This document shows positions 4,358 to 41,023 of a stretch of DNA of 64,000 nt, piece by piece (the stretch's first letter is position 1; each line of letters starts with the position of its first letter). This stretch comes from Halomonas sp. (GTDB lineage: Bacteria > Pseudomonadota > Gammaproteobacteria > Pseudomonadales > Halomonadaceae). The DNA is taken from the NCBI RefSeq assembly GCF_011050415.1, contig NZ_DRFS01000020.1, forward strand, positions 1 to 64,000. Direction: 5' to 3'. The translations under genes were made by a program, and so were the position numbers. Under the pieces are notes generated by a model that was not told the origin of the DNA, made no database searches, and saw only the letters and a list, made by a program, of their open reading frames with translations.

Positions 4358-4854
4358 GCGGCCTCCTCCCGCAATTGCTGGGTGGCGCGAATGACGATGG
4401 CGACGGCCTGCAGCAAAATTAGTACGGCGGCCACCATGATCACCCCTTTAATGGGGTAGACGGGAAGCGAGACCATGCCGTAAGTGGTCTCGCCGCGGCT
4501 GAAGGAGCGCTCAAAAAATGCCCAGCCATAGGTGATCAACAGCCAAATAAATGGGACGAAGAAGACCAAGTAGCTAACAAGCTCAAGTGCGGCCTGCTTG
4601 CGACGCGACAACAATCGCTTAAGCACATCGACCTCGACATGAGCGTGATGGCGTAATGCGTAGGCTGCCATCAGCATGAAGTGAGCTCCAAACAACATTT
4701 TGGTGATATCAAAAGCCCAGTCGCTCGGGCGCCCGGCCAAGAAACGCATAGCGATGTCGTAAATAACGATCATGGTAATGACGGCAAGAAGCGGAGCAAT
4801 CAAGCGACCGAATCCTTCGTTAAGGGCGTCGATGGCCCTGGCAATGGCATTCAT
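4354..4854 (-). CDS. dctQ: TRAP transporter small permease subunit (DctQ)
   Basis: About 166 residues from the ATG at 4854 (MNAIARAIDAL), with four predicted membrane helices, matching DctQ-family proteins. The frame stays open to 4926 but those extra residues are polar and unlike DctQ N-termini, so the internal ATG is chosen; no strong ribosome binding site separates the options. It overlaps dctM by four bases and follows dctP across a short gap containing a hairpin. Confidence 0.85.
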   Translation of the reverse strand: MNAIARAIDALNEGFGRLIAPLLAVITMIVIYDIAMRFLAGRPSDWAFDITKMLFGAHFMLMAAYALRHHAHVEVDVLKRLLSRRKQAALELVSYLVFFVPFIWLLITYGWAFFERSFSRGETTYGMVSLPVYPIKGVIMVAAVLILLQAVAIVIRATQQLREEAA

Positions 4855-4917
4855 GAAGAGGATCTCGGAATAGGTCAGTTCAAGCAGTGCATTAAAGGTC
4901 GCAGTAAGCCGACGAGG

Positions 4918-4936
4918 TGGGCCCATTAAGGGCCCA
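4918..4936. terminator. Hairpin between dctP and dctQ
   Basis: Perfect 7-bp stem TGGGCCC / GGGCCCA with a five-base ATTAA loop, just after the dctP stop and before the dctQ start. There is no T-run, so it is more likely a transcript-stabilising or partial attenuation hairpin that lets binding protein be made in excess over permease. That role is inferred from position. Confidence 0.45.
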
Positions 4937-4949
4937 ACCCCAACTCCGT

Positions 4950-6059
4950 TTACTGGTTCATGCAGGCCTCAAGATCTTCAAGCGAGGGAAGATCATTGGT
5001 AACGCGGCTCATATTGAAAGGCACGGAGAGGTCACGCCATGTCGCGTAGTGCTCCATGTAACTGATCATGGAGTGGTAAACCTTGGCATGATCTGGGTGT
5101 TCACAGGCGCCGCGCACAATCACCTCATTGGTGATCTCTTGGATACGGGCCAAATCTTCTTCAGAGAACTGATTGATGGTAATGCCCGCATCAATAAATT
5201 TTTGCGTGGCATCCGTAGACTCGCGTTCCGACCAAGAAAGCGACCAGCCCATAGTGGCATCGGCAGCAATTTGAAGCATTTCCTGAGTCTCTTCAGAAAG
5301 CGCATCCCAGGCGTCTTTATTGATCATTACCCCAAACACCGTGGCAGACTGGTGCCAACCGGGTGTCGCCCAGTAGTCCGCTACTTCCGCCAAGCCAACG
5401 CTGTAGTCAATGCCCGGCGCAGAGAACTCCGCCGCGTCAACCACTCCGCGCTCGATCGCTTGGTAGACCTCACCACCGGCAAGCGTTACCTGGGAACCGC
5501 CCAGCTGTTCCATCACACGCCCCTGGTCACGACCGGCAATGCGGAGCCGCTTACCGTCCAGATCAGCAATGCTCTCAATCGGCGTGCGGCCCATAAAGCC
5601 AGATTCGTTATTCAATACGCCATAGGGGAGATAAACCAAACCAAACTGACCGTAGATCTCCTGGTAAAGCTCGCGACCACCCCACTGTTGAATCCAGTTA
5701 AAGTAATCCAAGGCGTTAAATAGACTGGTCGTCGTTGCTAATGGTGAAAACGCTGGGTTGAGGCCAGCCCAATAACCAGGCCAATCGCCCGAGGCTTCAA
5801 TACTGCCTGTCTCAGTGGCATCGAACACTTCCGTGCCAGGCATTAGTGTTCCACCCGGGTGGAACTCAATCTGTAGTTCATCACCGGCTATCTTATTAAC
5901 CAGTTCAGCCCAGTGCCGATCAATTTTGACCGCATCAATGTTCTCAGGCCAGGTAGAGGTCATCGTCCAACTCTGCGGGGCTTGAGCACTAGCATTAAGG
6001 GGAATCAGGGATGCACCCAGGGCGAATCCGGCGAGCATAAGGGCGTGCTGCGTTTGCAT
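4950..6059 (-). CDS. dctP: TRAP transporter substrate-binding protein (DctP, TakP-like)
   Basis: Periplasmic solute-binding protein of 369 residues. Residues 1-26 form a Sec signal peptide ending near SAQA. The mature start QSWTMTSTWP, the HPGGTLMPG segment and GQFGLVYLPYG resemble the TakP branch of TRAP binding proteins, whose characterised member binds alpha-keto acids; a conserved Arg in the RIAGRDQ region would contact a carboxylate. Ribosome binding site AAAGGA lies eight bases before the ATG. It is the first gene of the minus-strand cluster and diverges from an AraC-type regulator. Confidence 0.9.
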   Translation of the reverse strand: MQTQHALMLAGFALGASLIPLNASAQAPQSWTMTSTWPENIDAVKIDRHWAELVNKIAGDELQIEFHPGGTLMPGTEVFDATETGSIEASGDWPGYWAGLNPAFSPLATTTSLFNALDYFNWIQQWGGRELYQEIYGQFGLVYLPYGVLNNESGFMGRTPIESIADLDGKRLRIAGRDQGRVMEQLGGSQVTLAGGEVYQAIERGVVDAAEFSAPGIDYSVGLAEVADYWATPGWHQSATVFGVMINKDAWDALSEETQEMLQIAADATMGWSLSWSERESTDATQKFIDAGITINQFSEEDLARIQEITNEVIVRGACEHPDHAKVYHSMISYMEHYATWRDLSVPFNMSRVTNDLPSLEDLEACMNQ

Positions 6060-6208
6060 GTTTTTTTCCTTTCGAGAACCGTCAGCTTTAAGCTGCTTTT
6101 GTTGTAAAGTTTGTCCGCCATTCTTATTTAAGGAGTTGCACTCAGTTCTGCGGCCAAGTCCTTATTATTGCGTGAGGCTACTCTACAAAGTTACGCTAGG
6201 TTCAAGGA

Positions 6209-6244
6209 AGGTCTAAATCGGTCTTCGCGAGGTCTTTTTCGGAC
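6209..6244. promoter_or_regulatory. Direct repeats upstream of the AraC-type regulator
   Basis: Two related 15-base words, AGGTCTAAATCGGTC at 6209 and AGGTCTTTTTCGGAC at 6230, are 11/15 identical and spaced exactly 21 bp apart, two helical turns, in the same orientation. This is the geometry of AraC-family binding sites. They lie 20 bp before the regulator's ATG and in the shared dctP/regulator intergenic region, so they may serve autoregulation or control of the divergent operon. Confidence 0.45.
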
Positions 6245-6263
6245 ATTTCATTGAGAGCAACTT

Positions 6264-7304
6264 ATGGCCAGCTTTCAAGCTAACCTACTGAATCAAAAGA
6301 TATATGCTCCCTACAAAATAGCGGCCTTACTGGATACGGTAGCGGAACAGGGGATTTCGGCTGACCAGGTTTTACGGGGGCTCAACTTAAGTCAGGCAGC
6401 GCTGGCGGACCCAGCCACACTGGTTTCCATCAAACAGTATGTGGATGCTTGTACAAATGTGATTGATGCGGGTGCTAATCTCGCAACCCCTTTCGAGACG
6501 GCTACTCGGCTGCATTTAACTGCTTATGGCATGTACGGTTACGCCCTGCTTACCAGCCCTACCATGCGGGACTATTTCAGCTTCGGGGTGAAATACCATC
6601 CTTTAGCCACGCCAACGTTATATATGACATGGAGAGAAACTGACGCCTCTGCCGTTTTTGAATTCAAAGAGACTTACTCGTATATCACCAGTATCAAAAC
6701 CCGCAATTTTTTAATTCAGCAGCAGATGGCGCAAAACATTACTCATATTCGCGATGCCGCGGGTCCCAGTCTTTTTCCCATCAAAGCACTGTTATCTTAT
6801 TCAGGGAAAGATGTTGAACAGATACATGAAAAATATTTACTGTGTGACTGTTACTTTAATCAAGAAGTAAACGAAATCCACTATCCCAAATCGATACTTG
6901 ATCAATCTCCCATATTAGGCAACCAGCTATCTATAAAACTACTTCAGGAAACCTGTAACCAACTGCTGGGCCGCACCAAGATGTCAACCGGCGTAACGGG
7001 CGAGGTGTATCAAATACTGCTGATGTCCCCGAACAGTTTCCCCACCATGGAAGCCGTCGCCAACCTACTGTGCATCACTACTCGCACGTTAAGAAGAAAG
7101 CTCGATGCAGAGCTGACCAGCTACCGGGAAATACTCGATGACGCCCGCTGCACGTTGGCAACCGAGTACCTGCTAGTTACCAAAATGAGTACCGAAGATA
7201 TAGCAGCACGGTTGGGATTCAGCGACAGTGCCAACTTTCGCAGAGCCTTCAGGCGCTGGACAGGCAAAACACCCCACCAGGTTCGTGAAGAGACGCAAAA
7301 CTAA
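6264..7304 (+). CDS. AraC-family transcriptional regulator
   Basis: Protein of 346 residues. The N-terminal two thirds resemble the arabinose-binding-like domain found in OruR/ArgR-type AraC regulators. The C-terminal 100 residues carry the two helix-turn-helix motifs, with NLLCITTRTLRRKL and the signature DIAARLGFSDSANFRRAFRRWTGKTP. It is transcribed away from the TRAP/BKACE/SDR cluster, and is therefore the probable substrate-responsive activator of that operon. The effector is unknown. Confidence 0.9.
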   Translation: MASFQANLLNQKIYAPYKIAALLDTVAEQGISADQVLRGLNLSQAALADPATLVSIKQYVDACTNVIDAGANLATPFETATRLHLTAYGMYGYALLTSPTMRDYFSFGVKYHPLATPTLYMTWRETDASAVFEFKETYSYITSIKTRNFLIQQQMAQNITHIRDAAGPSLFPIKALLSYSGKDVEQIHEKYLLCDCYFNQEVNEIHYPKSILDQSPILGNQLSIKLLQETCNQLLGRTKMSTGVTGEVYQILLMSPNSFPTMEAVANLLCITTRTLRRKLDAELTSYREILDDARCTLATEYLLVTKMSTEDIAARLGFSDSANFRRAFRRWTGKTPHQVREETQN

Positions 7305-9778: not shown

Positions 9779-10195
9779 ATGATGGAAAAACGTCCTGCTA
9801 TAATTATTAATCGCCTTGATGCCGAGCGTCTTCAGCGGCTGATCGATAATGCATCGGATAAAGATATGATGGTGGCTCAATTACTGGAGGAAGAATTAAC
9901 CCGTGGTGAGGTACGTGACCCACAAGATATTCCAGAAGACGTGGTTAGCATGAACAGCCAGATACGCTTCACTGATCTCACTCGTGGGCTCAAAATGATT
10001 CGAACCCTGGTCTATCCACACTCTTTGGCAAGCGTACCAGATGGTATTTCAGTCATGGCGCCAATCGGAGCTGCCTTAATCGGGCTCAAAATCGGTGATA
10101 TCATTGAATGGCCTTTACCTAACAATACCGAAGCCCGCTTACGTATCGATGCTATTTATTGGCAACCGGAACGCGAAAAACAGTTCCACAGATAG
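9779..10195 (+). CDS. rnk: Rnk-like regulator of nucleoside diphosphate kinase
   Basis: Protein of 138 residues with the two-part build of Rnk: a short N-terminal helical segment (residues about 1-50) and a C-terminal GreA/GreB-like FKBP-type domain (VSMNSQIRFTDL, VMAPIGAALIGLKIGDIIEWPLP). Rnk-type proteins lack the Gre coiled coil and bind RNA polymerase without cleavage activity; in E. coli the protein influences nucleoside diphosphate kinase levels. GGAGAG precedes a double ATG start, so the initiator could be at 9779 or 9782. Confidence 0.85.
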   Translation: MMEKRPAIIINRLDAERLQRLIDNASDKDMMVAQLLEEELTRGEVRDPQDIPEDVVSMNSQIRFTDLTRGLKMIRTLVYPHSLASVPDGISVMAPIGAALIGLKIGDIIEWPLPNNTEARLRIDAIYWQPEREKQFHR

Positions 10196-10270
10196 TACTG
10201 GCCACCGACAAAATCATTTCTGCGCAACAATAAATAGTTGAAAAATTAGTATTTAACAAGGTTATGTCTC

Positions 10271-10747
10271 ATGCTAAAAGTAGCAATATTTGTTGATGTG
10301 CAGAATGTATATTACACAGTGCGTGAAGCGTATCGAAAAAACTTTGATTATAATAAATTCTGGACGCAAGCTACTGACAATAGAGAAGTTGTCAGCGCTT
10401 TTTGTTATGCAATAGACAGAGGTGATCAAAAGCAACGTGAATTTCAAAATATACTCAGGGCGATTGGCTTTGATGTAAAACTGAAACCTTTTATTCAACG
10501 GTCAGATGGGTCAGCAAAAGGGGACTGGGATGTAGGCATTGCTCTCGATGCTATTGAGCTCGCCGAACAAGCAGATGTTATCGTACTCGTGTCAGGCGAT
10601 GGCGACTTTGACCTTTTAGCTAATAAAATTCGTGTTAAGCATGGGAAAAAAGTAGAAGTTTACGGCGTGCCACAGCTTACTGCTGCGTCATTAATTAATG
10701 AAGCCAGTGAGTTTATAGCGATAGATAAATCTCTCTTACTGAGTTAA
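10271..10747 (+). CDS. NYN-domain (LabA/DUF88-like) putative ribonuclease
   Basis: Protein of 158 residues made entirely of a NYN/PIN-like fold. The acidic metal-site positions typical of the family are visible: VAIFVDVQNVYY (Asp9, Asn12), KGDWDVGIALDAIELA and VSGDGDFDLLANKI. Such proteins are predicted metal-dependent RNases; LabA relatives act in circadian output in cyanobacteria, but the function here is unknown. It is A/T-richer than its neighbours and stands alone, with no strong ribosome binding site. Confidence 0.85.
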   Translation: MLKVAIFVDVQNVYYTVREAYRKNFDYNKFWTQATDNREVVSAFCYAIDRGDQKQREFQNILRAIGFDVKLKPFIQRSDGSAKGDWDVGIALDAIELAEQADVIVLVSGDGDFDLLANKIRVKHGKKVEVYGVPQLTAASLINEASEFIAIDKSLLLS

Positions 10748-11047
10748 TTTAATTATAAGTAACAAAATGATTTTATATGAAACTTATCTGATTTAGATAC
10801 ACGTCGATTAAGGCAAAAAAATCTATTCTGAAAAGCAAAAACTTCTACAGCCATTCAACAACTATTCTACAGTTGAATTGCCATATGTAACCGTATCGAC
10901 TAGTTTAGTTACGACGGGTGCGCTAAACACTTTTCTAATGCTGGCTTACTCAATACCCCCCTCATCATCACTGACTGCAGCTCAGCTCACTTGGTGCGCT
11001 CCAATCTCTGCGCAGTCGGTTTGGGTCAACCAGCAAGGAGGACATGA
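10748..11047. other. Intergenic region before the ATP-grasp gene
   Basis: No gene seen. An inverted repeat ATTCAAC / GTTGAAT sits near 10850-10880 without a T-run. The last ten bases before the next ATG provide a strong AAGGAGG ribosome binding site. Confidence 0.5.
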
Positions 11048-31296: not shown

Positions 31297-31331
31297 CAGG
31301 GGCCTGCGAGGAATCGCAGGCCCCTGTTTTT
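31297..31331 (+). terminator. Rho-independent terminator of the BCCT gene, left island edge
   Basis: Perfect 13-bp stem CAGGGGCCTGCGA / TCGCAGGCCCCTG with a GGAA loop and a run of five T. The hairpin is 25/28 identical, in the same orientation, to the tRNA-Arg terminator at 40984-41011, on the other side of the island. Confidence 0.9.
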
Positions 31332-31676
31332 AATTGGTGAGGCTCTGGAGGTTGCATTCGAGACTATCAGCGACCTGATATATGCTCAGTCGTGAACGCG
31401 CATCTCTGCGAAACTATCCAAGACTGCAACTCAATCCCCCAAGCGCTGCGACTATTGCTGTATGTTGCTAATGACTAGCTCTTATGTCGAGACTAATTAA
31501 GAGATGGAGCATTGAAATATAACACTTAAGACCAATAACAGTCGGTAACTACTAGCTGTTATACAGCTAACACCGGCTAATTAAATGTCTCAACCTCTAC
31601 TGAGTGCCCCTAGTCGGCGACGACTTTAATAATATTTTTTAAACTTAACTAACAAAAAATCTTAATTATAAAAAAA
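31332..31676. other. Non-coding left flank of the accessory island
   Basis: A/T content rises here. No gene, tRNA remnant or integrase was seen. An inverted repeat AGCTGTTATACAGCT-like at about 31550-31567 is the only local structure. Confidence 0.4.
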
Positions 31677-33044
31677 TCATATTCCAGTTTTGCTAGATAG
31701 CTTAGCTTCCACATAGGCTTGCCAACGCAAACTCAGTCTTCTCTGTCTAAATTTATAAATCCAAGGCAAGGGGGTTGGTGCTCTTTCAATAGCTGCATTG
31801 TAATCTGACATAAGAAGTAGAACATCGGACTCTGAGTAACCTCTAGAAGCTACGTTCTCTACCCGCTTGAATATTTCATCAATGGTAACAGCGGAGCTTC
31901 GATAGGCAAGCAATAGACCAAGCGAATCAGATGAGATTACAAAGATCATTATCGCTATCATTGCGCGAGAGAGAGACATCAAACTATTTGATTCCAATGA
32001 AGCAATTGCAGCTCCACCAATGACGGATACAATTGCTGCTAAAAAAAGTAAAGTTATGATCATTACTTTTGCGCTAGCTTGTTGCAGATCTCGCGTCCAA
32101 TACGAAGATTCCTCAATCATCTCGGATAACCGCTTATAGCTTGGAGCTTCTCTACTGGAAAAATGATCTTCTTCACGCCGAAGCGTTTTCTTCGAAATAG
32201 TTGCATTGAAGCCATCGCTTATACGAAGTTTTTGGCCCGCTGGCGGCTCCAAACCTAGCCCGCTCATAATTAAAACGGCACGACGTGCTTGGTCTCCTGA
32301 AGACCGATAACGTTGTTGAGCCTTACTAAAAAACAGCCAAAAAAGCATAATAATGAAGCCAAAAATCGCTGCTAAAAAGAGATATTTATTATCCCTAGAA
32401 TACACCGAGACAGCAGCCGTTAAAGCGATTAATAATTGAGCCAGCATCATAAAAATTTGAAGGCGCTCAGCCTTATCAGATTCAGCCCGCTGATGAGCAA
32501 GCAACTTGTTTACACTAAACTCACTTGCAGTCTCTCGCAATCGGCTTTCAATAAAATCTTTCTTGCCTAGCATGTAAGATGTAACATCTTCATAATAATT
32601 CTTAGCAAGTTGCTTTTTTAAGGACACATAATTCAGAGCCAATTCACTATCTGACTCAAGCTCATTTCGAAAGATAAGCATGTCACGTCCCCAGCGACAA
32701 TGTGGCTGACATATATGTACATGAAAACACCCAGAATCATTTGAAGAATACTTAGTTAAAAAATACCGAGGAACATCATCACATTTTTCGCTTATACAAT
32801 AGCCTAAGCCCTCCAGCTTAGTAACAATTTCTGCAGCGGACTTCCAATCAGTTAATGAGATTAATATATCGATTATAGGCTTACTAGATAAACCTTTAAC
32901 AGACGTTGAGCCAACATGATCAATATAGATATATTTGTCTGACATAGCTGACCGAATAGCGTTAGATTCTCTTAAAAACTGTTTTCGCCAAGAAGGACTA
33001 TGCTCAGCAATATTTATACTTCCTATTCCCACACCTAATTTCAT
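31677..33044 (-). CDS. GrpB-like nucleotidyltransferase fused to a four-helix membrane module
   Basis: Protein of 455 residues. Residues about 15-165 match the GrpB/UPF0157 nucleotidyltransferase-fold family, with HVGSTSVKGLSSKPIID at 43-59. Two pairs of membrane helices follow (about 197-215 with 221-240, and 330-355 with 362-385), separated by a soluble segment, resembling SLATT or S-4TM pore-type effector modules. This architecture couples a putative nucleotide-signal or sensor domain to a membrane effector, as in many anti-phage systems. It has no close operon partner on its strand. Function is inferred only from architecture. Confidence 0.7.
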   Translation of the reverse strand: MKLGVGIGSINIAEHSPSWRKQFLRESNAIRSAMSDKYIYIDHVGSTSVKGLSSKPIIDILISLTDWKSAAEIVTKLEGLGYCISEKCDDVPRYFLTKYSSNDSGCFHVHICQPHCRWGRDMLIFRNELESDSELALNYVSLKKQLAKNYYEDVTSYMLGKKDFIESRLRETASEFSVNKLLAHQRAESDKAERLQIFMMLAQLLIALTAAVSVYSRDNKYLFLAAIFGFIIMLFWLFFSKAQQRYRSSGDQARRAVLIMSGLGLEPPAGQKLRISDGFNATISKKTLRREEDHFSSREAPSYKRLSEMIEESSYWTRDLQQASAKVMIITLLFLAAIVSVIGGAAIASLESNSLMSLSRAMIAIMIFVISSDSLGLLLAYRSSAVTIDEIFKRVENVASRGYSESDVLLLMSDYNAAIERAPTPLPWIYKFRQRRLSLRWQAYVEAKLSSKTGI

Positions 33045-33901: not shown

Positions 33902-35101
33902 ATGCACATTGTGGGCGGTCTTTACCGAGAATTATGCGATATACCGCACTGGGACGCCACAATGGGTTCAGGAGGCCGCGCTGCGATGGCCACGACCGAA
34001 TTGTCACCGAAATCTGAATTTTATACCTACGCCTCCCCTGCCGACGATGCTGCTATTCAGACGCTGCGAAGCAAGGGAGTGATTGCCACCACCGTTGCCC
34101 GATCCTCGTCCATCGTCTTTGCCTATTTTCATCCTTTATCTTCCCCTCATGTCGAGCCACCGCGGGACGCTCTCGTTCGGCTGCCTGCACTAGAGGTCAC
34201 AGGGGAAGCAGTATTGCGCTTCGGATTCCTAGAAGGCGATGCAATCGTCACAGCTGAACGCGCTGTTTATGATCCTCAGACTTGGCGTAATCCAGAGCCT
34301 TTTTCGGCAAATGGTTCAACTGCTGGAGAATTAGCGTTGGTACTCAATGAGCTTGAGATCCGTAAAGCTACAGGCATAGATAATCTTGATAAAGCTGCAC
34401 TTCATTTAATAAAGGAAGTTGGCGCTCAAGTCATTGTTATCAAAAAAGGCGCTTGCGGAGCATCGGTCTACGATGCAGCAGGAAGCATTTCCCACGTACC
34501 CGCTTACTACTCAAGAAAAGTTTTTAAAATCGGAACTGGAGACATTTTCAGCGCAGTATTTGCTGTGTACTGGGCAGAAAGAAAATTACCCGCCGCTAAA
34601 GCTGCCGATTTGGCGTCGCGGTCAGTATCACTTTATTGCGAGACGCGTGCGTTTGTGTTTGATCCCCTTTCTCTTTCTCAGCGTCAACCCGTTGTTGCGA
34701 AAGTGGGTGCACGAATTTCAATTGAGGGAGGTACCGAGTCCATCGGCCAACGCTATACCCTGGAAGAAGCCCGCTTTGCCTTACAAGAATTGGGAATGGA
34801 GGTGATGCACCCTGAGATGGAACAATCAGTCGAGTCTTGGAGAGCGGATGCCACGCTCGTCATTGATGATGGCCTAACCCCGCAAGCTTTGATTCGAGTT
34901 CAAAAGGAGCAGGCACTAGGAAGGCCTATAGTTGTGCTCCACGAGAGATCAAATACGACAACCTCACTGGCCACAGTTTTTGAGGCAACCGATGACTTCG
35001 CATCAGCCATCTATCTTGCAGCTTGGGCCGCAGGTGAACGCATTGCTCACAACAATAAATGGAACCGCCCTGGGGATGTGCAATGGAATGTAACCAGTTG
35101 A
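33902..35101 (+). CDS. PfkB-like kinase fold fused to a deoxyribosyltransferase-like domain
   Basis: Protein of 399 residues preceded by GAGGGC at good spacing. Residues 1-260 resemble a PfkB/ribokinase: HIVGGLYREL at 2-10, a GSGGRAA turn at 22-28, VIVIKKGACGASVYD at 177-191 and GTGD at 211-214 with the catalytic-type Asp214. Residues about 265-350 resemble the nucleoside 2-deoxyribosyltransferase/SLOG Rossmann fold (VESWRADATLVIDDG...ALGRPIVVLHE). The catalytic Glu expected in the GTxxExG motif appears to be replaced (Arg332). It may therefore bind rather than hydrolyse a nucleoside ligand. First gene of a five-gene operon; candidate sensor or modified partner. Confidence 0.75.
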   Translation: MHIVGGLYRELCDIPHWDATMGSGGRAAMATTELSPKSEFYTYASPADDAAIQTLRSKGVIATTVARSSSIVFAYFHPLSSPHVEPPRDALVRLPALEVTGEAVLRFGFLEGDAIVTAERAVYDPQTWRNPEPFSANGSTAGELALVLNELEIRKATGIDNLDKAALHLIKEVGAQVIVIKKGACGASVYDAAGSISHVPAYYSRKVFKIGTGDIFSAVFAVYWAERKLPAAKAADLASRSVSLYCETRAFVFDPLSLSQRQPVVAKVGARISIEGGTESIGQRYTLEEARFALQELGMEVMHPEMEQSVESWRADATLVIDDGLTPQALIRVQKEQALGRPIVVLHERSNTTTSLATVFEATDDFASAIYLAAWAAGERIAHNNKWNRPGDVQWNVTS

Positions 35102-35115
35102 GGCACGACCAACCC

Positions 35116-36507
35116 ATGCCGGACGTTTACCTTATTTATGCTAAGGAAAACCGTGACACCGCAGTGAAGGTTCGAGACCTTCTATCCTCATCATGGAATG
35201 TCTGGTTAGATGATCGTGTCGTTGGCGATTTTGGCACAATTATAAAAGAGAAAATTCAGAGCTCGAAATGCGTTGTCGCACTGTACTCTTCCTTCGCTAG
35301 CAAACCAGCGGTGACTGGGGAGCTCAGTCTCGCGGTTAAATACGACAAAAAGGTCATCCCATTGATTTTGGATGACAGCGACCCACCTTATCCTTATGGG
35401 CACTTCAGCTACATTGATTTTCGGGCATGGAAAGGTGATGTAGCTGCAGAAGAAGTGAAAATACTGCAGATTAAAGTCGGAGAAATCATCGAACCTCAGA
35501 GCCCGCCCAGTCGGCTTGAAGCAATTCATGAAGGACAATTGCCGATTCCGAATGTCTTCATGTCCGTTTCATCTCATGAGACCCAGTTCACACCCGCTGA
35601 GGCACTGAGCGTGCTAAACGCACATAAAACTGGATCAATCCTAGTCTCTGCTTATGATCTAGTAAAATCTGAAGATGAAGAAAGGAAAAAGATAGTCAAG
35701 GAGATTCAGGACTATCGTAGTCAAGGCGGATTCGTTCTTATCGATTCAGGGAACTATGAAGCTGATCGCATGGAAGATAAGGACTGGACGCCCTCTCATT
35801 TCAAAGAGGCTTTGCTGGGAACACCTCATGACTGGGCGTTTTGCTTTGATGAAATGAAGCCGAGTAAAAATATAGAAAAAGCTATTGAAGAAGTTGTCCA
35901 AGCAGTAAAACGCGACTCCGAATACACTCAGGCCCCTGTGCTACCTATCGTCCATGTATCACAAGATGAGGCTGGTTTGAAGCGTCTACCTCAAATCGTG
36001 CGTGGTGTATCAGAACGACTCCGTCCTCAAATCATAGCGATCGCGGAACGAGAGCTGGGAGCGGGTATGGTGCTTCGGGCTAGAACTATGAAAAAAGTAA
36101 GGACGGAACTCGACAAACTGTCCTACTACCAGCCCATCCATTTGCTGGGCACCGGAAATCCTTGGAGCATCGCAGTGCTTGTCGCTGCCGGAGCTGACAC
36201 CTTTGACGGACTGGAATGGTGCCGCTTTTCAATTGATAGAGAAGAGAATCGCCTGCATCACTTCCAGCATTTTGACTTTTTTAGAAAGTCCGGTGATCGA
36301 ACGCCGTTCCTCAATATGGTGGATGCCGCCCCTGATATTAAATATGCCGGCCGAGTAGCCTTGTACAATCTGGAGTACTATAAAGAATTTGGGGTCATGA
36401 TGCGCTCTATGATTGCGACCAAGGAAGCCGAGCTTTTCGCGATTGGCATTACGCGAATGTCTACTGCCCGTGAGCTTAGAAAGCTCTTTCCGGAGATATT
36501 TTCATGA
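35116..36507 (+). CDS. TIR domain fused to a tRNA-guanine-transglycosylase-like domain (Cap10/DpdA-like)
   Basis: Protein of 463 residues from the ATG at 35116 (MPDVYLIYAKENRDT), where the TIR domain begins; the frame is open from 35059 but would overlap the previous gene by 43 bases. Residues 1-125 form a TIR domain, with Glu69 in TGELSLAVKY as the candidate catalytic Glu. Residues about 145-460 resemble the TGT barrel: VLIDSGNYE (Asp210) and HLLGTGNP...GADTFDGLEWCR (342-370; Asp364 at the nucleophile position). The CxCxxC zinc cluster of tRNA-modifying TGTs is not visible. Overlaps the next gene by ATGA. Type IV CBASS Cap10 is also a TGT-fold protein; fusion to TIR is notable. Confidence 0.85.
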   Translation: MPDVYLIYAKENRDTAVKVRDLLSSSWNVWLDDRVVGDFGTIIKEKIQSSKCVVALYSSFASKPAVTGELSLAVKYDKKVIPLILDDSDPPYPYGHFSYIDFRAWKGDVAAEEVKILQIKVGEIIEPQSPPSRLEAIHEGQLPIPNVFMSVSSHETQFTPAEALSVLNAHKTGSILVSAYDLVKSEDEERKKIVKEIQDYRSQGGFVLIDSGNYEADRMEDKDWTPSHFKEALLGTPHDWAFCFDEMKPSKNIEKAIEEVVQAVKRDSEYTQAPVLPIVHVSQDEAGLKRLPQIVRGVSERLRPQIIAIAERELGAGMVLRARTMKKVRTELDKLSYYQPIHLLGTGNPWSIAVLVAAGADTFDGLEWCRFSIDREENRLHHFQHFDFFRKSGDRTPFLNMVDAAPDIKYAGRVALYNLEYYKEFGVMMRSMIATKEAELFAIGITRMSTARELRKLFPEIFS

Positions 36508-37202
36508 CCAGCTATAGTGCCGAAGCGCTGTCTAGAGCGGTAGCAGCGGTCTGCCCTGACATACGCCTACGCATAGAGGAGGGAGTAGTGTCAGACGAAC
36601 GCCACCTCTGGTGGGAGTTGTCGTGCTGCATTCTAAGCAGCCAAGTACCCTACTCACTTGCCATAGCGGCGGCAGATGCGATAGATGCGCAAGGATTTCT
36701 TTATCAAAATAAAAAAGATCAACTAGATCTCCCTGAGCGTTTGTTAGCGGTACTGAGCCTCCCTTTAGACGTAGAGGGCAAAAAGCGCAGCTACAGGTTC
36801 CCTAAAGCTAAAGCTGGTCAACTCGCGTCCACTTGGGCTGCGGTAGTGGACACCGGTGGCTCATTGAGTGCCTTGATCAGCAGGGACGTCAACGACGCAC
36901 GGGCATGGCTTGTTGCCAATGCTTGCGGCATTGGGCCTAAGCAGGCAAGCATGTTCTTGCGTAACTGTGGTGTAACTTATGACCTGGCTATTTTAGATCG
37001 ACATGTCCTTAATTATATGTCTGCTCAAGGCATTTACTCGGGCACTCAAGCATCCATATCTGGGCTGAGCCAGTACGGTCGTCATGAACAACGGTTACGC
37101 GATCATGCGTGGGAAATGAGTTGCCCGGTCGGGCTGCTAGACTGGGCAATATGGATTGTCATGCGCGTTGCGAACCGTAAGCAGGAGGCTATTATATTAT
37201 GA
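36504..37202 (+). CDS. OGG-type HhH-GPD DNA glycosylase (Cap11-like)
   Basis: Protein of 232 residues resembling archaeal-type Ogg2 8-oxoguanine DNA glycosylase/lyases. The helix-hairpin-helix GIGPKQASMFLRNCG holds the catalytic-type Lys146, and LAILDRHVLNYM the conserved Asp165. It lacks an iron-sulfur cluster motif. OGG-like genes accompany QueC- and TGT-like genes in type IV CBASS. Four-base overlaps on both sides show strong translational coupling, so it acts in the same system. It may recognise a deazaguanine-like base in protein or nucleic acid rather than repair DNA (inference). Confidence 0.88.
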   Translation: MTSYSAEALSRAVAAVCPDIRLRIEEGVVSDERHLWWELSCCILSSQVPYSLAIAAADAIDAQGFLYQNKKDQLDLPERLLAVLSLPLDVEGKKRSYRFPKAKAGQLASTWAAVVDTGGSLSALISRDVNDARAWLVANACGIGPKQASMFLRNCGVTYDLAILDRHVLNYMSAQGIYSGTQASISGLSQYGRHEQRLRDHAWEMSCPVGLLDWAIWIVMRVANRKQEAIIL

Positions 37203-37792
37203 GCATTGTGACACTCGTTTCTGGAGGTCTAGACTCCACACTGGTTGCGAAATTGGCGATAGAAGAAGGGCTGCGGATTTTTCCGCTTTTCATAGATTAC
37301 GGTCAGCGCGCACGTGAGAAAGAGCTAGCTGCCTGCAAATTAGCCATGAAGAAGTTCGGCCTCCCTGAGCCTGAGATCGCTGATTTGTCAGGATTTGGAA
37401 AATTGATAAACTCAGGGCTTACGGATTCCAATCTGCATATTATTGACGACGCGTTTACGCCTGGACGAAATATGCTTTTCTTGCTTACAGCGGCTGCTTA
37501 TGCGTATAAAAAAAATGCAGACGCAATCTCGATAGGTCTACTTCATGAAAGCACCAGCTTGTTCCCCGATCAAACCTCTAGATTCCTGACGGAAGCTGAG
37601 AGCATGATAAGCCTATGCATGGGAAGACAAATCAAGGTACTAGCTCCGCTGGCTTTATTTACCAAATCAGATGTAGTGGCACTAGCAGCCAAAAAAGGGA
37701 TTACACAGACTTATTCCTGCCATCTAGGGGAAGAAGAGGCATGCGGTAACTGCATTGCCTGCAACGAATTCAAATTCGAGGGAAACCAGTAA
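37199..37792 (+). CDS. QueC-like 7-deazaguanine ligase (Cap9-like)
   Basis: Protein of 197 residues, shorter than housekeeping QueC (about 220-230). PP-loop SGGLDST at 8-14, DYGQRAREKELAA, the substrate-site FTPGRN at 86-91 and zinc cysteines 174, 182, 185 and 188 are all present, so it should be active. QueC converts 7-carboxy-7-deazaguanine to preQ0 using ATP and ammonia. In type IV CBASS a QueC-like protein is reported to join the deazaguanine acid to a protein N-terminus instead. No other queuosine genes are in the window, and operon context favours that defence role. Confidence 0.9.
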   Translation: MSIVTLVSGGLDSTLVAKLAIEEGLRIFPLFIDYGQRAREKELAACKLAMKKFGLPEPEIADLSGFGKLINSGLTDSNLHIIDDAFTPGRNMLFLLTAAAYAYKKNADAISIGLLHESTSLFPDQTSRFLTEAESMISLCMGRQIKVLAPLALFTKSDVVALAAKKGITQTYSCHLGEEEACGNCIACNEFKFEGNQ

Positions 37793-38259
37793 TGGGCGGG
37801 AGCAGCATAGGAGGATGGAGCCGACTTGGCGATGTGAAATCGCTAGAGCAGAAAGCCAAAGCTGCGCTTAACGAGGGCAAGCGAAACGTGTTTATAAGTT
37901 TTGCGACTGAAGACATGAATGAGGTCAACCTGCTGCGAGCTCAAGCAAAAAATGACAATAACGATATAGAGTTTAATGACCACTCTGTTCGTGAACCCTA
38001 TGATAGCGTTCAGGCCGAGTATATTAGGCGCAAAATTGCAGAACGTATCAACCGGGCCTCGGTTACTGTTGTATTCATTTCCCCTAATGCAGTTCAGAGC
38101 AAGTGGGTTAAGTGGGAGGTTGAGAAAAGCCTGGAACTTGGGAAAAAAGTGGTGGCTGTGTACTCGGGTACTCGATACGACGGCGTCCCCCCTGAGTGGC
38201 TAAAAGACCATGGAATTAAGAGCGTTGCTTGGTCGAAACTTGGTGACGAGCTAAAGTAA
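37792..38259 (+). CDS. Small TIR-domain protein with a Met-Gly-Gly N-terminus
   Basis: Protein of 155 residues whose ATG overlaps the QueC stop (TAATG). A flexible Gly/Ser-rich N-terminus (MGGSSIGGWSRLGD) precedes a ThsB/DUF1863-like TIR domain from residue 31 (RNVFISFATED), with Glu109 in SKWVKWEVEKSLELGKKV at the catalytic position. Met removal would expose an N-terminal glycine. Related TIR proteins share the MGG...RxGD tail as I recall it. It could be an NAD-consuming or cyclic-ADP-ribose-producing effector and a candidate substrate for the neighbouring QueC-like enzyme. Last gene of the operon. Confidence 0.85.
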   Translation: MGGSSIGGWSRLGDVKSLEQKAKAALNEGKRNVFISFATEDMNEVNLLRAQAKNDNNDIEFNDHSVREPYDSVQAEYIRRKIAERINRASVTVVFISPNAVQSKWVKWEVEKSLELGKKVVAVYSGTRYDGVPPEWLKDHGIKSVAWSKLGDELK

Positions 38260-38324: not shown

Positions 38325-39188
38325 TCAATTATCTTTACGTGCTTCCCACTGGGTGTGTTCTCGCGAAAAGGCATTCTCAGCATCGCCCACAAATTTTGAC
38401 AACTGATCATCTGTAGCTAGTTCTTGTGCTTGCTCTCTTATCAAAGTGATTTCGTGCGCCGTTAAAGCATACGAAGCAGAGAGCTCTGTAAAACGCTTAG
38501 CCTGCATCCAGGTTAGTAGACTAGCTGCAATAACTATCAGCACATCCGTGGGAAAATATTGGTACTGAACGTTGGCTATTTTGATCAAAGCGCAAATAAA
38601 GGCAATAGAGTTAACGAATATCAAGGCAGTGAAAAAGCATTTTGCTGCAGTGGCGTTGAATTTGGCCTTTCGCGCGTACCAGTCCAACTGATCGTTAATA
38701 CGAAATTTCACATAAGTGTCACGTCGCATAGCGCATTCCTCGTCCCTAAGTTGTTTCATTACTGCCGTAATTTGGTAAGCAGATAGATGACTAATTAGTT
38801 TATCTGATACCCCCGAATTTTGCCGCACCACTTGGATAAGTTTTTGTAATAAGTGTTGCTTGGCTGCCTCATCGTTTTCATGAAAAGGCTCTGCCCTGGA
38901 AACGTAACGCCAGGTTATAGTCTTGATTGACTCAGCGACAGCCCGCCCGGAGTACCAAAGCCGCTCAGGCCTCTTCGCCGCGAGGTACACGGAGCTAGCC
39001 AGTGTTCCAGCAAGCAGTGCGGCTTGGATAACAGCCGATATCCAATGAGGATAATTAATGACAGAAATGATCGCCACCGCCACCAAGAACACTAGGTTAA
39101 TAACCAGGGCGATGAAAAAATTCGATTGTGCATCCCCAGAGAGCTTGTCGGCTGCTTGATAGAGACCTGGAAAATCAGAGTTTTGCAT
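38325..39188 (-). CDS. SLATT-domain membrane protein (DUF4231-like)
   Basis: Protein of 287 residues with two pairs of membrane helices (about 24-44 and 49-70; 184-204 and 213-229). Signature segments of the SLATT_1/SLATT_3 type are RLWYSGRAVAESIKTITWRYVSRAEPF, FRINDQLDWYARKA and the C-terminal FSREHTQWEARK. SLATT proteins are predicted pore-forming effectors in nucleotide-activated conflict systems. It faces the TIR/QueC operon tail-to-tail and is followed by the TPR gene's strand-mate; whether it belongs to the operon's system or acts alone is unclear. Confidence 0.85.
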   Translation of the reverse strand: MQNSDFPGLYQAADKLSGDAQSNFFIALVINLVFLVAVAIISVINYPHWISAVIQAALLAGTLASSVYLAAKRPERLWYSGRAVAESIKTITWRYVSRAEPFHENDEAAKQHLLQKLIQVVRQNSGVSDKLISHLSAYQITAVMKQLRDEECAMRRDTYVKFRINDQLDWYARKAKFNATAAKCFFTALIFVNSIAFICALIKIANVQYQYFPTDVLIVIAASLLTWMQAKRFTELSASYALTAHEITLIREQAQELATDDQLSKFVGDAENAFSREHTQWEARKDN

Positions 39189-39443
39189 TTACTACCTCAT
39201 AACTAATATTTTGGTAAACGCTGTTTGGAATGGGTAGTTCCCGCGCTCGCTGTTTGTCTAGTGTCCAGCACATGAGCAATAGCAGTCACCCAATAGCCCA
39301 TATAAACGCAGACAGAGGTTTTAGTTACGCTGATGGTAGCCATTAAAATTTGCACCAATTAAACTGAACCGCTCCTCTATCGAAACTAATATCTCAGCGT
39401 ACGATATTAGTTTGGAGCAATGATACGCCCCGAATACCAGTTC

Positions 39444-40697
39444 TTAATTTTGGACAGATGATAGCATTGCTAGCCGCTCTGGCCTGATGGTAAACAGTTC
39501 TTCCTTGCCAGCCATATAAGTGTCTATTTCCCATTGCGCTTCAGCTGCACCCAAAAACCTATGTTCGAAAGCTTCAGCCTCATTTAATCGCTCAATGGCG
39601 AAATAGCAGTTGGCCAACGTTGCGTAAATCCAGCGTTTGTCGAGTCGATCAAAAAAGTCAGCAGAGTCCAATAGCGGCAACAGTAAATTTATAATCGACT
39701 GCCGAATTTTGCGGGCACTCATAAAGTCAAATACCTTTTCAGGCTTCTCTGATTGAACCTGAGCACGAAACTCGAAGCATATCGCAAGGTTTTCGCCATT
39801 ATAATAGTCGCGCTTGACCTCAAATCCCCGTTGATAAAACTGGATGGAAGCCTCGAGCGACTCGAGGTCTCCTTCCTTCAGCCACAAGCGTTTGGTGATC
39901 GCGCCAGCTACTCCAACAGTCTCGGGATCGTTAGAAGCTTCAGGTTCGAGAACTCGAATAATTTCAAGGGCCGCGCGCAATGCCGAGATTTCGTCTGGGA
40001 GCTTTGCTTTATATGTAGTCAATGCCAATTTCTGTAGAATGTCAGGCTCGCTTGGCTTCATGTCCCTAGCCACCGCAAACTCTTGACTTGCCAAGTCGTG
40101 TCTGCTTTGACGCATGAATTTTTCGCCTTCACGCATATGGCGAGAAAACCGCTGCTGCGCCTCCTCGGCCTCTTCCAGCAACTCTTCATATTCTTCATCG
40201 GACATTCTTGGCGAAATGAGCTTGGGGAGAAATGTGTAAACGGGGCTGTCAACAGCTTGGGCAGCCATTACAGCGCCAATAAGTTCTCCTAGTTCCTTCA
40301 CTGCTCTTTTGGCTTCACGCGCCAGAATGTCATCGCCGAAATGCTGGTAACTAAATGTGTTGATATGGTTCAGATCAAAGTACAGCTTGCCCCGATCTTC
40401 ATTCATGATAATAGTTGAATTAGGTCTAAGTGCATGCCGCACTCCCAACTCGTAAACGGCATTTACGTTACCAGTAGAAATGTCAGCTATGACCAGATCG
40501 GCCCTAAGAAGCATCTCGTACATTTTTACATCGATGAAACCTGACTGTGTAATTTCATCAGCCCTTATACACCTCAAGCCTTGTGCAGTGACGGCAGGCT
40601 CGATAATGGTCTCGTATGTAGCATTCAGATCAAGCGTACGACCAGTTTCATATTCGGTTTTTTTGCCGAAACCCATTACCACAAAGCATACCTTCAT
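39444..40697 (-). CDS. DUF4071-like TPR protein with an N-terminal deoxyribosyltransferase-type domain
   Basis: Protein of 417 residues. The N-terminus (CFVVMGFGKKTEYETGRTLDL...ADEITQSGFIDVKMYEMLLRADLVIADIS) is a Rossmann-like domain of the nucleoside deoxyribosyltransferase or TIR-like kind, with Glu83 in YELGVRHAL. Residues about 160-400 are helical repeats (TPR-like). The whole resembles the bacterial relatives of the ASK1/MAP3K TRAF-binding region (DUF4071), which occur in predicted immune signalling loci. On the minus strand, 255 bp upstream of the SLATT gene, so the two may form a pair. Role is inferred. Confidence 0.72.
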   Translation of the reverse strand: MKVCFVVMGFGKKTEYETGRTLDLNATYETIIEPAVTAQGLRCIRADEITQSGFIDVKMYEMLLRADLVIADISTGNVNAVYELGVRHALRPNSTIIMNEDRGKLYFDLNHINTFSYQHFGDDILAREAKRAVKELGELIGAVMAAQAVDSPVYTFLPKLISPRMSDEEYEELLEEAEEAQQRFSRHMREGEKFMRQSRHDLASQEFAVARDMKPSEPDILQKLALTTYKAKLPDEISALRAALEIIRVLEPEASNDPETVGVAGAITKRLWLKEGDLESLEASIQFYQRGFEVKRDYYNGENLAICFEFRAQVQSEKPEKVFDFMSARKIRQSIINLLLPLLDSADFFDRLDKRWIYATLANCYFAIERLNEAEAFEHRFLGAAEAQWEIDTYMAGKEELFTIRPERLAMLSSVQN

Positions 40698-40983: not shown

Positions 40984-41016
40984 AAAGGGGCATGCGATAA
41001 ATCGCAGGCCCCTTTT
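40981..41016 (-). terminator. Terminator of tRNA-Arg, right island edge
   Basis: Sixteen-base stem with one mismatch (arms AAAAGGGGCATGCGAT and ATCGCAGGCCCCTTTT on the plus strand), two-base loop, and T-run on the minus strand. The central 28 bases (40984... to 41012 region) repeat the BCCT terminator hairpin at 31298-31325 with three differences, in the same orientation. Confidence 0.85.
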
Positions 41017-41023
41017 CACAATT

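Follow-up and report, generated by a model that had tools for sequence, protein, structure and literature searches.

What does a set of nucleobase enzymes do in an operon with TIR proteins? The question is raised by a 64,000-nucleotide stretch of Halomonas sp. DNA (the window; contig NZ_DRFS01000020.1, positions 1–64,000), in which five plus-strand genes encode a PfkB-like protein, a TIR domain fused to a tRNA-guanine transglycosylase (TGT) domain, an 8-oxoguanine glycosylase (OGG)-like protein, a QueC-like enzyme and a small TIR protein. A preliminary description had compared QueC, TGT and OGG with the accessory proteins of the type IV cyclic-oligonucleotide-based antiphage signalling system (CBASS) and proposed that here, without a cGAS/DncV-like nucleotidyltransferase (CD-NTase), the modification enzymes serve TIR effectors, with the PfkB-like protein as a possible sensor. 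This interpretation is supported in part: the modification enzymes recur with TIR proteins in a conserved gene order and no CD-NTase is detectable, while the PfkB sensor is not sustained. The gene set is probably an antiviral system in which the QueC-like enzyme acts on the small TIR and not on a cyclic-nucleotide-making enzyme. We put the probability that this is a TIR-based defence module working by N-terminal nucleobase tagging at roughly 60%. The small TIR, with its MGG-starting tail, is the likely target of this chemistry, and the TGT domain is the likely reader of the tag.

The small TIR matches ThsB models (PF08937, 2e-23; PADLOC ThsB, 9e-17). Its TIR domain starts only near residue 33–34 in Pfam, so the preceding tail is an added piece. 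The tail starts with MGG in all 31 unbroken copies (31 of the 32 compared loci, with L034 read from a TTG start); near-duplicates occur among these loci, and the 31 readable small TIRs contain 20 distinct 30-residue tails. The L023 copy starts with MGGG and suffers a frame break later in the gene. Residues M1, G2, G3 and E109 are invariant in 22 aligned rows. The neighbouring gene families of the same loci served as a control. A start codon followed by Gly-Gly is found in none of the TIR-TGT (0/32), OGG (0/32), QueC (0/32), SLATT (0/23) or TPR-S (0/30) genes and in three of the 26 PfkB genes. According to PMC13279940, Cap9 attaches a carboxydeazaguanine to CdnD at its N-terminal glycine (MGGS), and the MGTS N-terminus of QatB, which lies on a disordered tail, is essential; the G2D mutation blocks defence in both CBASS and Qat and, in CBASS, also tagging. 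The solved CdnD structure (9ntn) has GGS near the start of its construct. A type IV CBASS cyclase from one plasmid locus (L005), which matches solved CdnD at 1.7e-76, starts with MGGSGGG.

The QueC-like enzyme is of minimal length (197 residues) and matches the PADLOC QueC model at 1e-28. The SGGxDS and YGQ motifs, Glu42, Arg90-Asn91, Asp124 and the four Cys ligands are invariant in 31 rows. Canonical QueC structures (2pg3 and 3bl5) are the first PDB matches, and Cap9 (9nto) is the third. In a tree of 47 rows, from which five of the 32 loci were left out as near-copies (L018, L020, L026, L031 and L036), the QueCs of the TIR system group together in a clade (99/97) that is separate from canonical QueC and the QueCs paired with PfkB proteins elsewhere (100/100). 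The host genome contains a canonical queC beside a queE-like open reading frame (ORF), and the host should therefore make the substrate.

The TGT domain has Cap10 as its best PDB match by profile (8.8e-10) and by fold, in three comparisons, and the FDGLxW and DSGxYE motifs are common to both in the profile alignment. The fold comparison tested well only residues 110–449 of the TIR-TGT model, so the TIR half rests on Pfam; Glu69 of this TIR is invariant in 24 rows. Transfer RNA TGTs bind zinc at a CxC pair, and no conserved CxC pair was seen in the TGT domain alignment. These features bear on nucleic-acid modification as an alternative, in which QueC makes 7-deazaguanine, TGT inserts it into DNA or RNA, OGG clears improper sites and the TIRs kill on wrong nucleic acid. 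QueC, TGT and OGG are all nucleobase enzymes, the Asp positions of TGT are kept, and OGG retains Lys146 and Asp165 in 32 of 32 rows, with N-glycosylase/DNA lyases as its PDB matches. However, in both profile and fold the TGT domain resembles Cap10 more closely than tRNA TGT, it shows no conserved CxC pair, and the alternative leaves the MGG-starting tail of the small TIR unexplained. We consider this alternative unlikely.

The remaining partners bear on a second alternative. TPR-S, which was not on the preliminary gene list, is a commoner partner than PfkB (30/32 versus 26/32 loci). A PADLOC TIR effector model (PDLC00733, 3e-8) is a weak match to its N-terminal domain, which keeps an NxNxxYExG stretch and presumably resembles nucleotide-binding domains. 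In the PfkB-like protein, the GTGD catalytic motif (G211, T212, G213 and D214) is invariant in 16 rows. The PfkB part of the originally described fusion is confirmed (5e-8); its deoxyribosyltransferase part is degenerate, aligning with the PF05014 domain of plasmid relatives without their SGT-E-GYA motif. PF05014 has no Pfam match in the window protein, whereas the L037 and L044 PfkB proteins do match it. The model of the window protein has a predicted local distance difference test (pLDDT) score of 87, and the top 50 PDB matches listed are all ribokinase-type kinases, so they identify no fold for the C-terminal part. PfkB was not found in six of the 32 loci (L033, L034, L035, L081, L082 and L083), and a core role as sensor was rejected on this ground, the degenerate deoxyribosyltransferase half also speaking against it; a helper role is more likely.

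In the second alternative, QueC, PfkB and OGG would prepare or salvage a modified base or nucleoside, the TIRs would join it to ADP-ribose and TPR-S would read the messenger. The kept PfkB kinase motif and the NxNxxYExG stretch agree with such small-molecule signalling, and conjugated ADP-ribose (His-ADPR) is made by other TIRs, as described in PMC12948488. The absence of detectable PfkB from six loci argues against it, and the MGG tail and Cap10-type TGT are unaccounted for. It appears marginally less probable still than nucleic-acid modification.

Gene content was compared across the 32 loci, which include the window and in which TIR-TGT, as the query, is present by construction. The genome scan with the TIR-TGT alignment yielded 21 loci and the viral scan one, and more came from genome searches. 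Among plasmids, 14 records matched, of which four of the TIR-TGT system were fetched together with one true type IV CBASS (L005). Whole-genome profile matches that covered one part only were left out (3/5 and 18/23 genomes in two scans). The same order was sought in other genomes, as the preliminary description had proposed, and OGG, QueC and the small TIR are present in 32 of 32 loci with order and strand unchanged. TPR-S occurs in 30 loci (L024 has a short match only), PfkB in 26 and SLATT in 23; the absence of SLATT from L034 (6.6 kb) and L082 (7.8 kb) says little because these contigs are short. Judged by gene content, the conserved core is TIR-TGT (or TGT alone), OGG, the QueC-like enzyme and the small TIR, with TPR-S nearly throughout. 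Identity to the window among loci with the same order is 31–82% for TIR-TGT and 54–90% for QueC. Compared with rhizobial plasmids, the small TIR is 67–68% identical and TIR-TGT 41–44%. The five genes are under purifying selection (dN/dS 0.04–0.15 against the nearest relative, L015). The recurrent order and low dN/dS show that the arrangement is not due to chance.

Near-full-length TIR-TGT was found in five of 398 sampled Pseudomonadota genomes, including that of the window. The system was not matched in the phage collection, and one viral-contig locus alone was obtained; the PfkB query had no match in viral contigs. In E. coli genomes, the system was not found at the DNA level. In L034, labelled as a Micrarchaeota metagenome-assembled genome, TIR-TGT shares 67% identity with the L033 (Clostridiales) protein, and mis-binning of L034 is therefore possible. 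In L031 (6892–10858), an interruption of ∼2.4 kb lies inside the TIR-TGT gene.

No CD-NTase was detectable together with the Cap9- and Cap10-like, OGG-type and TIR proteins, in agreement with the preliminary description. Two of the outcomes that it had named as refutations, a gene set not conserved together elsewhere and a CD-NTase gene at the locus in most relatives, were thus looked for and not observed. A CdnD tblastn search, made with one query of limited reach, found only L005 among the searched loci. When more type IV CdnD was sought, plasmids other than L005 gave only matches below 28% identity, viral contigs gave none and the 398 Pseudomonadota genomes gave none at 1e-10 in a search without a positive control. 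These results bear on a decayed or split type IV CBASS with its CD-NTase elsewhere, for which the shared QueC, TGT and OGG types speak. PF18144 (SMODS) has a match somewhere in seven of 27 genomes with the system (six over the cut-off), at ten places, and one fetched place lies ∼33 kb from the system, apparently on the same contig (G682). In contrast, the host genome and 19 others have no PF18144 match, and the six places fetched of the ten contain no gene of the TIR-TGT system. Purifying selection and the stable order across distant hosts also argue against this alternative, which is very improbable.

A TIR-based tagging module would resemble several known systems in part. Like type IV CBASS (CdnD, Cap9, Cap10 and Cap11), the locus combines a QueC-type ligase, a Cap10-type TGT, an OGG-type protein and an MGG-starting partner. 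The Cap9-like features are the 9nto match (1.5e-12, behind canonical QueC), the PADLOC match, the minimal length and the SGGxDS, Arg-Asn and Cys-ligand positions, and the Cap10-like features of the TGT are likewise present. For Cap11, the OGG-type protein of type IV CBASS, the possible counterpart here has an OGG family match but no PADLOC match. Unlike type IV CBASS, the operon has no CD-NTase that could be found, and the N-terminal glycine motif, known here from sequence alone, lies on a ThsB-like TIR instead of the CD-NTase. In addition, a second TIR is usually part of the TGT protein, and TPR-S, SLATT and PfkB are added. In qatABCD, too, a QueC-family protein has a partner whose disordered tail carries a glycine motif (MGTS) at the N-terminus (PMC13279940), but QatC is extended, whereas the QueC here is minimal with a canonical-like pocket. 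Among the eight scanned island-region proteins, no PADLOC model match to QatA, QatB or QatD was found, nor any model match to ThsA. The small TIR recalls Thoeris through its ThsB matches, whereas the nucleobase enzymes set the locus apart from Thoeris.

In the proposed mechanism, the small TIR would lose Met1, and the QueC-like enzyme would use ATP to join 7-carboxy-7-deazaguanine, supplied by the host queuosine pathway, to Gly2. This step is modelled on the action of Cap9 on the cyclase of type IV CBASS. The tagged tail would be bound by the Cap10-like TGT domain. Because the TGT carries its own TIR in all but one compared locus, binding would pair two TIR domains and set or hold their NAD-consuming or signal-making activity. 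The effect of the TIR product or complex would run through TPR-S and in many loci also the SLATT membrane protein, stopping the infected cell. OGG and PfkB might adjust the tag state or base supply, with PfkB dispensable across loci.

Several observations weigh against this proposal. The QueC sequence is nearer to canonical QueC structures (1e-18 and 6e-14) than to Cap9 (1.5e-12), and its clade joins Cap9 weakly (88/76) on long branches. The system QueCs have FPDQ (FSDQ in L083) at the canonical YPDC position; in the window, Phe122 and Gln125 replace Tyr and Cys. Given this replacement, the QueC chemistry may differ; Y131F leaves E. coli QueC partly active, as reported in PMC13329287. The TGT domain keeps the Asp positions of active TGTs, and glycosyl transfer by it is conceivable from its sequence. 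TIR pairing through the TIR-TGT fusion is not universal because the TGT of L035 (Pelotomaculum; 9917–10933) carries no TIR domain; this system is similar in other respects and keeps the MGG-starting TIR. For OGG, no PADLOC model gave a match. A Gly-rich N-terminus can be simply a linker, and beyond MGG the likeness of the tail to CdnD is weak: 8 of 1000 shuffles were as good for L005 and 78 of 1000 for 9ntn, and homology over the whole tail was not retained.

The ORFs, strands and domain names of the preliminary description were reproduced (Table 1), as were the ATGA overlaps at 36504–36507 and 37199–37202, the TAATG overlap at 37790–37794 and a gap of 14 bases 3′ of the PfkB-like gene. The TIR-TGT start is placed at ATG 35116, where relatives begin to align, whereas the mechanical ORF list had 35059. 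The module reaches past 38259 to SLATT and TPR-S (Pfam).

Table 1. Coordinates of the genes of the TIR-TGT locus in the window.
Gene product	Position	Strand	Family match and occurrence
PfkB-family (ribokinase-fold) protein with degenerate nucleoside-deoxyribosyltransferase-like C-terminal part	33902..35101	+	PF00294 5e-8; 26/32 loci
TIR domain fused to Cap10-like TGT domain	35116..36507	+	TIR_2 3e-14, TGT 2e-6 (Pfam)
OGG/HhH N-glycosylase-like protein, Lys146 and Asp165 kept	36504..37202	+	PF22175 (Ogg-HhH) 7e-25
QueC/Cap9-like ATP-dependent ligase, candidate N-terminal deazaguanylation enzyme	37199..37792	+	PF06508 4e-41
Small ThsB-like TIR, MGG[S/G] N-terminal tail, candidate tag acceptor, Glu109 kept	37792..38259	+	PF08937 (ThsB_TIR) 2e-23
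SLATT (DUF4231), two-transmembrane effector-type, accessory	38325..39188	-	PF18184 1e-40, PF18181 5e-37; 23/32 loci
TPR-S, probable sensor or effector partner	39444..40697	-	PF20308 3e-20; 30/32 loci

In most Pseudomonas relatives, SLATT and TPR-S are separated by a second small TIR gene; in the window, this interval (39189–39443) is just a short gap in which 62 bases match that gene weakly.

The region is probably an acquired island. Its G+C content is 40–51% in the 32–42 kb blocks and 50–59% in other 2-kb blocks, except at 6–12 kb (45–48%), and a tRNA-Arg gene marks the end of the low-G+C stretch. All 11 same-genus relatives fetched retain the tRNA and the gene next to it, and the 1.5 kb compared on the other side of the tRNA showed neither island nor upstream-flank sequence. 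Together, these observations point to acquisition. A terminator-like hairpin pair lies at the two island ends (31298–31335 and 40986–41023; 82% alike over 38 bases). A minus-strand gene at 31677–33044 encodes a GrpB domain fused to a four-transmembrane (4TM) effector-type domain (PADLOC 'Effector, 4TM', 4e-66); it was rejected as a module member, having no tblastn match in any other searched locus.

Defence-gene surroundings, which the preliminary description had suggested looking for, are indicated by the flanks of the compared loci. The flanking set (109 of 161 listed ORFs, from 13 of 18 listed loci) had hits to 112 PADLOC families (1e-10 or better), with Gabija (GajA), Argonaute (pAgo), Pycsar TIR (PycTIR) and AbiE (AbiEi) among them, and eight of the 109 ORFs have a TIR_2 domain. 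The 46 control ORFs, from the window outside the island, matched five families (best 4e-33). This result is an indication and not a rate because families were counted rather than ORFs and because a single genome supplied the smaller control set.

PfkB and QueC genes also adjoin outside the TIR-TGT system. In PMC13329287, a PF00294-PF05014 (PfkB) fusion next to QueC constitutes QueC cluster 4, for which purine salvage is proposed. The window shares the adjoining PfkB-type and QueC-type proteins with this cluster. However, its QueC falls in a separate clade (100/100), its PfkB has a degenerate deoxyribosyltransferase half without a PF05014 match, and the operons of annotated PfkB-QueC pairs have no TIR-TGT; membership in cluster 4 was rejected on the tree and the missing PF05014. 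With PfkB as query, plasmids yielded 37 records; 13 of these belong to the TIR-TGT system, and 14 of the other 24 were fetched (L037–L050). PfkB adjoins QueC in all 14, and the two PfkB proteins scanned (L037 and L044) are PF00294-PF05014, as in cluster 4 of PMC13329287. The small gene directly upstream of PfkB encodes a Gly/Ser-rich tail starting with MSG or MSSG in 11 of 12 bacterial loci (exception L047; nine of the eleven starts are annotated ones) and with MGGG in two of two haloarchaeal loci. Most of these small proteins are one family, since two of them as queries reach 12 of the 14 loci. They are possible acceptors of QueC-type tagging.

QueC-like N-terminal nucleobase tagging may be a general immune principle with interchangeable acceptors (the CBASS cyclase, QatB, the TIR here and the small MSG/MSSG/MGGG protein of PfkB-QueC pairs), with TGT-TIR reading the tag and pairing TIRs, a proposal to which we give somewhat less than even odds. 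Among the papers listed from the open literature, subscription papers being outside the scope, none was found that unites TIR, QueC and TGT in one system. If the small TIR is indeed tagged, protein deazaguanylation would reach beyond cyclic-nucleotide immunity into TIR immunity, and the PfkB-QueC pairs, currently interpreted as purine salvage, would deserve a second look. The locus offers a specific, directly testable answer in which the acceptor is a TIR protein and the reader a TGT-TIR fusion. Among the PfkB-QueC loci, L042 has a VUT-family gene (annotated as queuosine salvage) near the pair at 10495–11034, and L044 has two TIR genes and a membrane-type ORF (4678–6756) upstream of its haloarchaeal MGGG/PfkB/QueC set.

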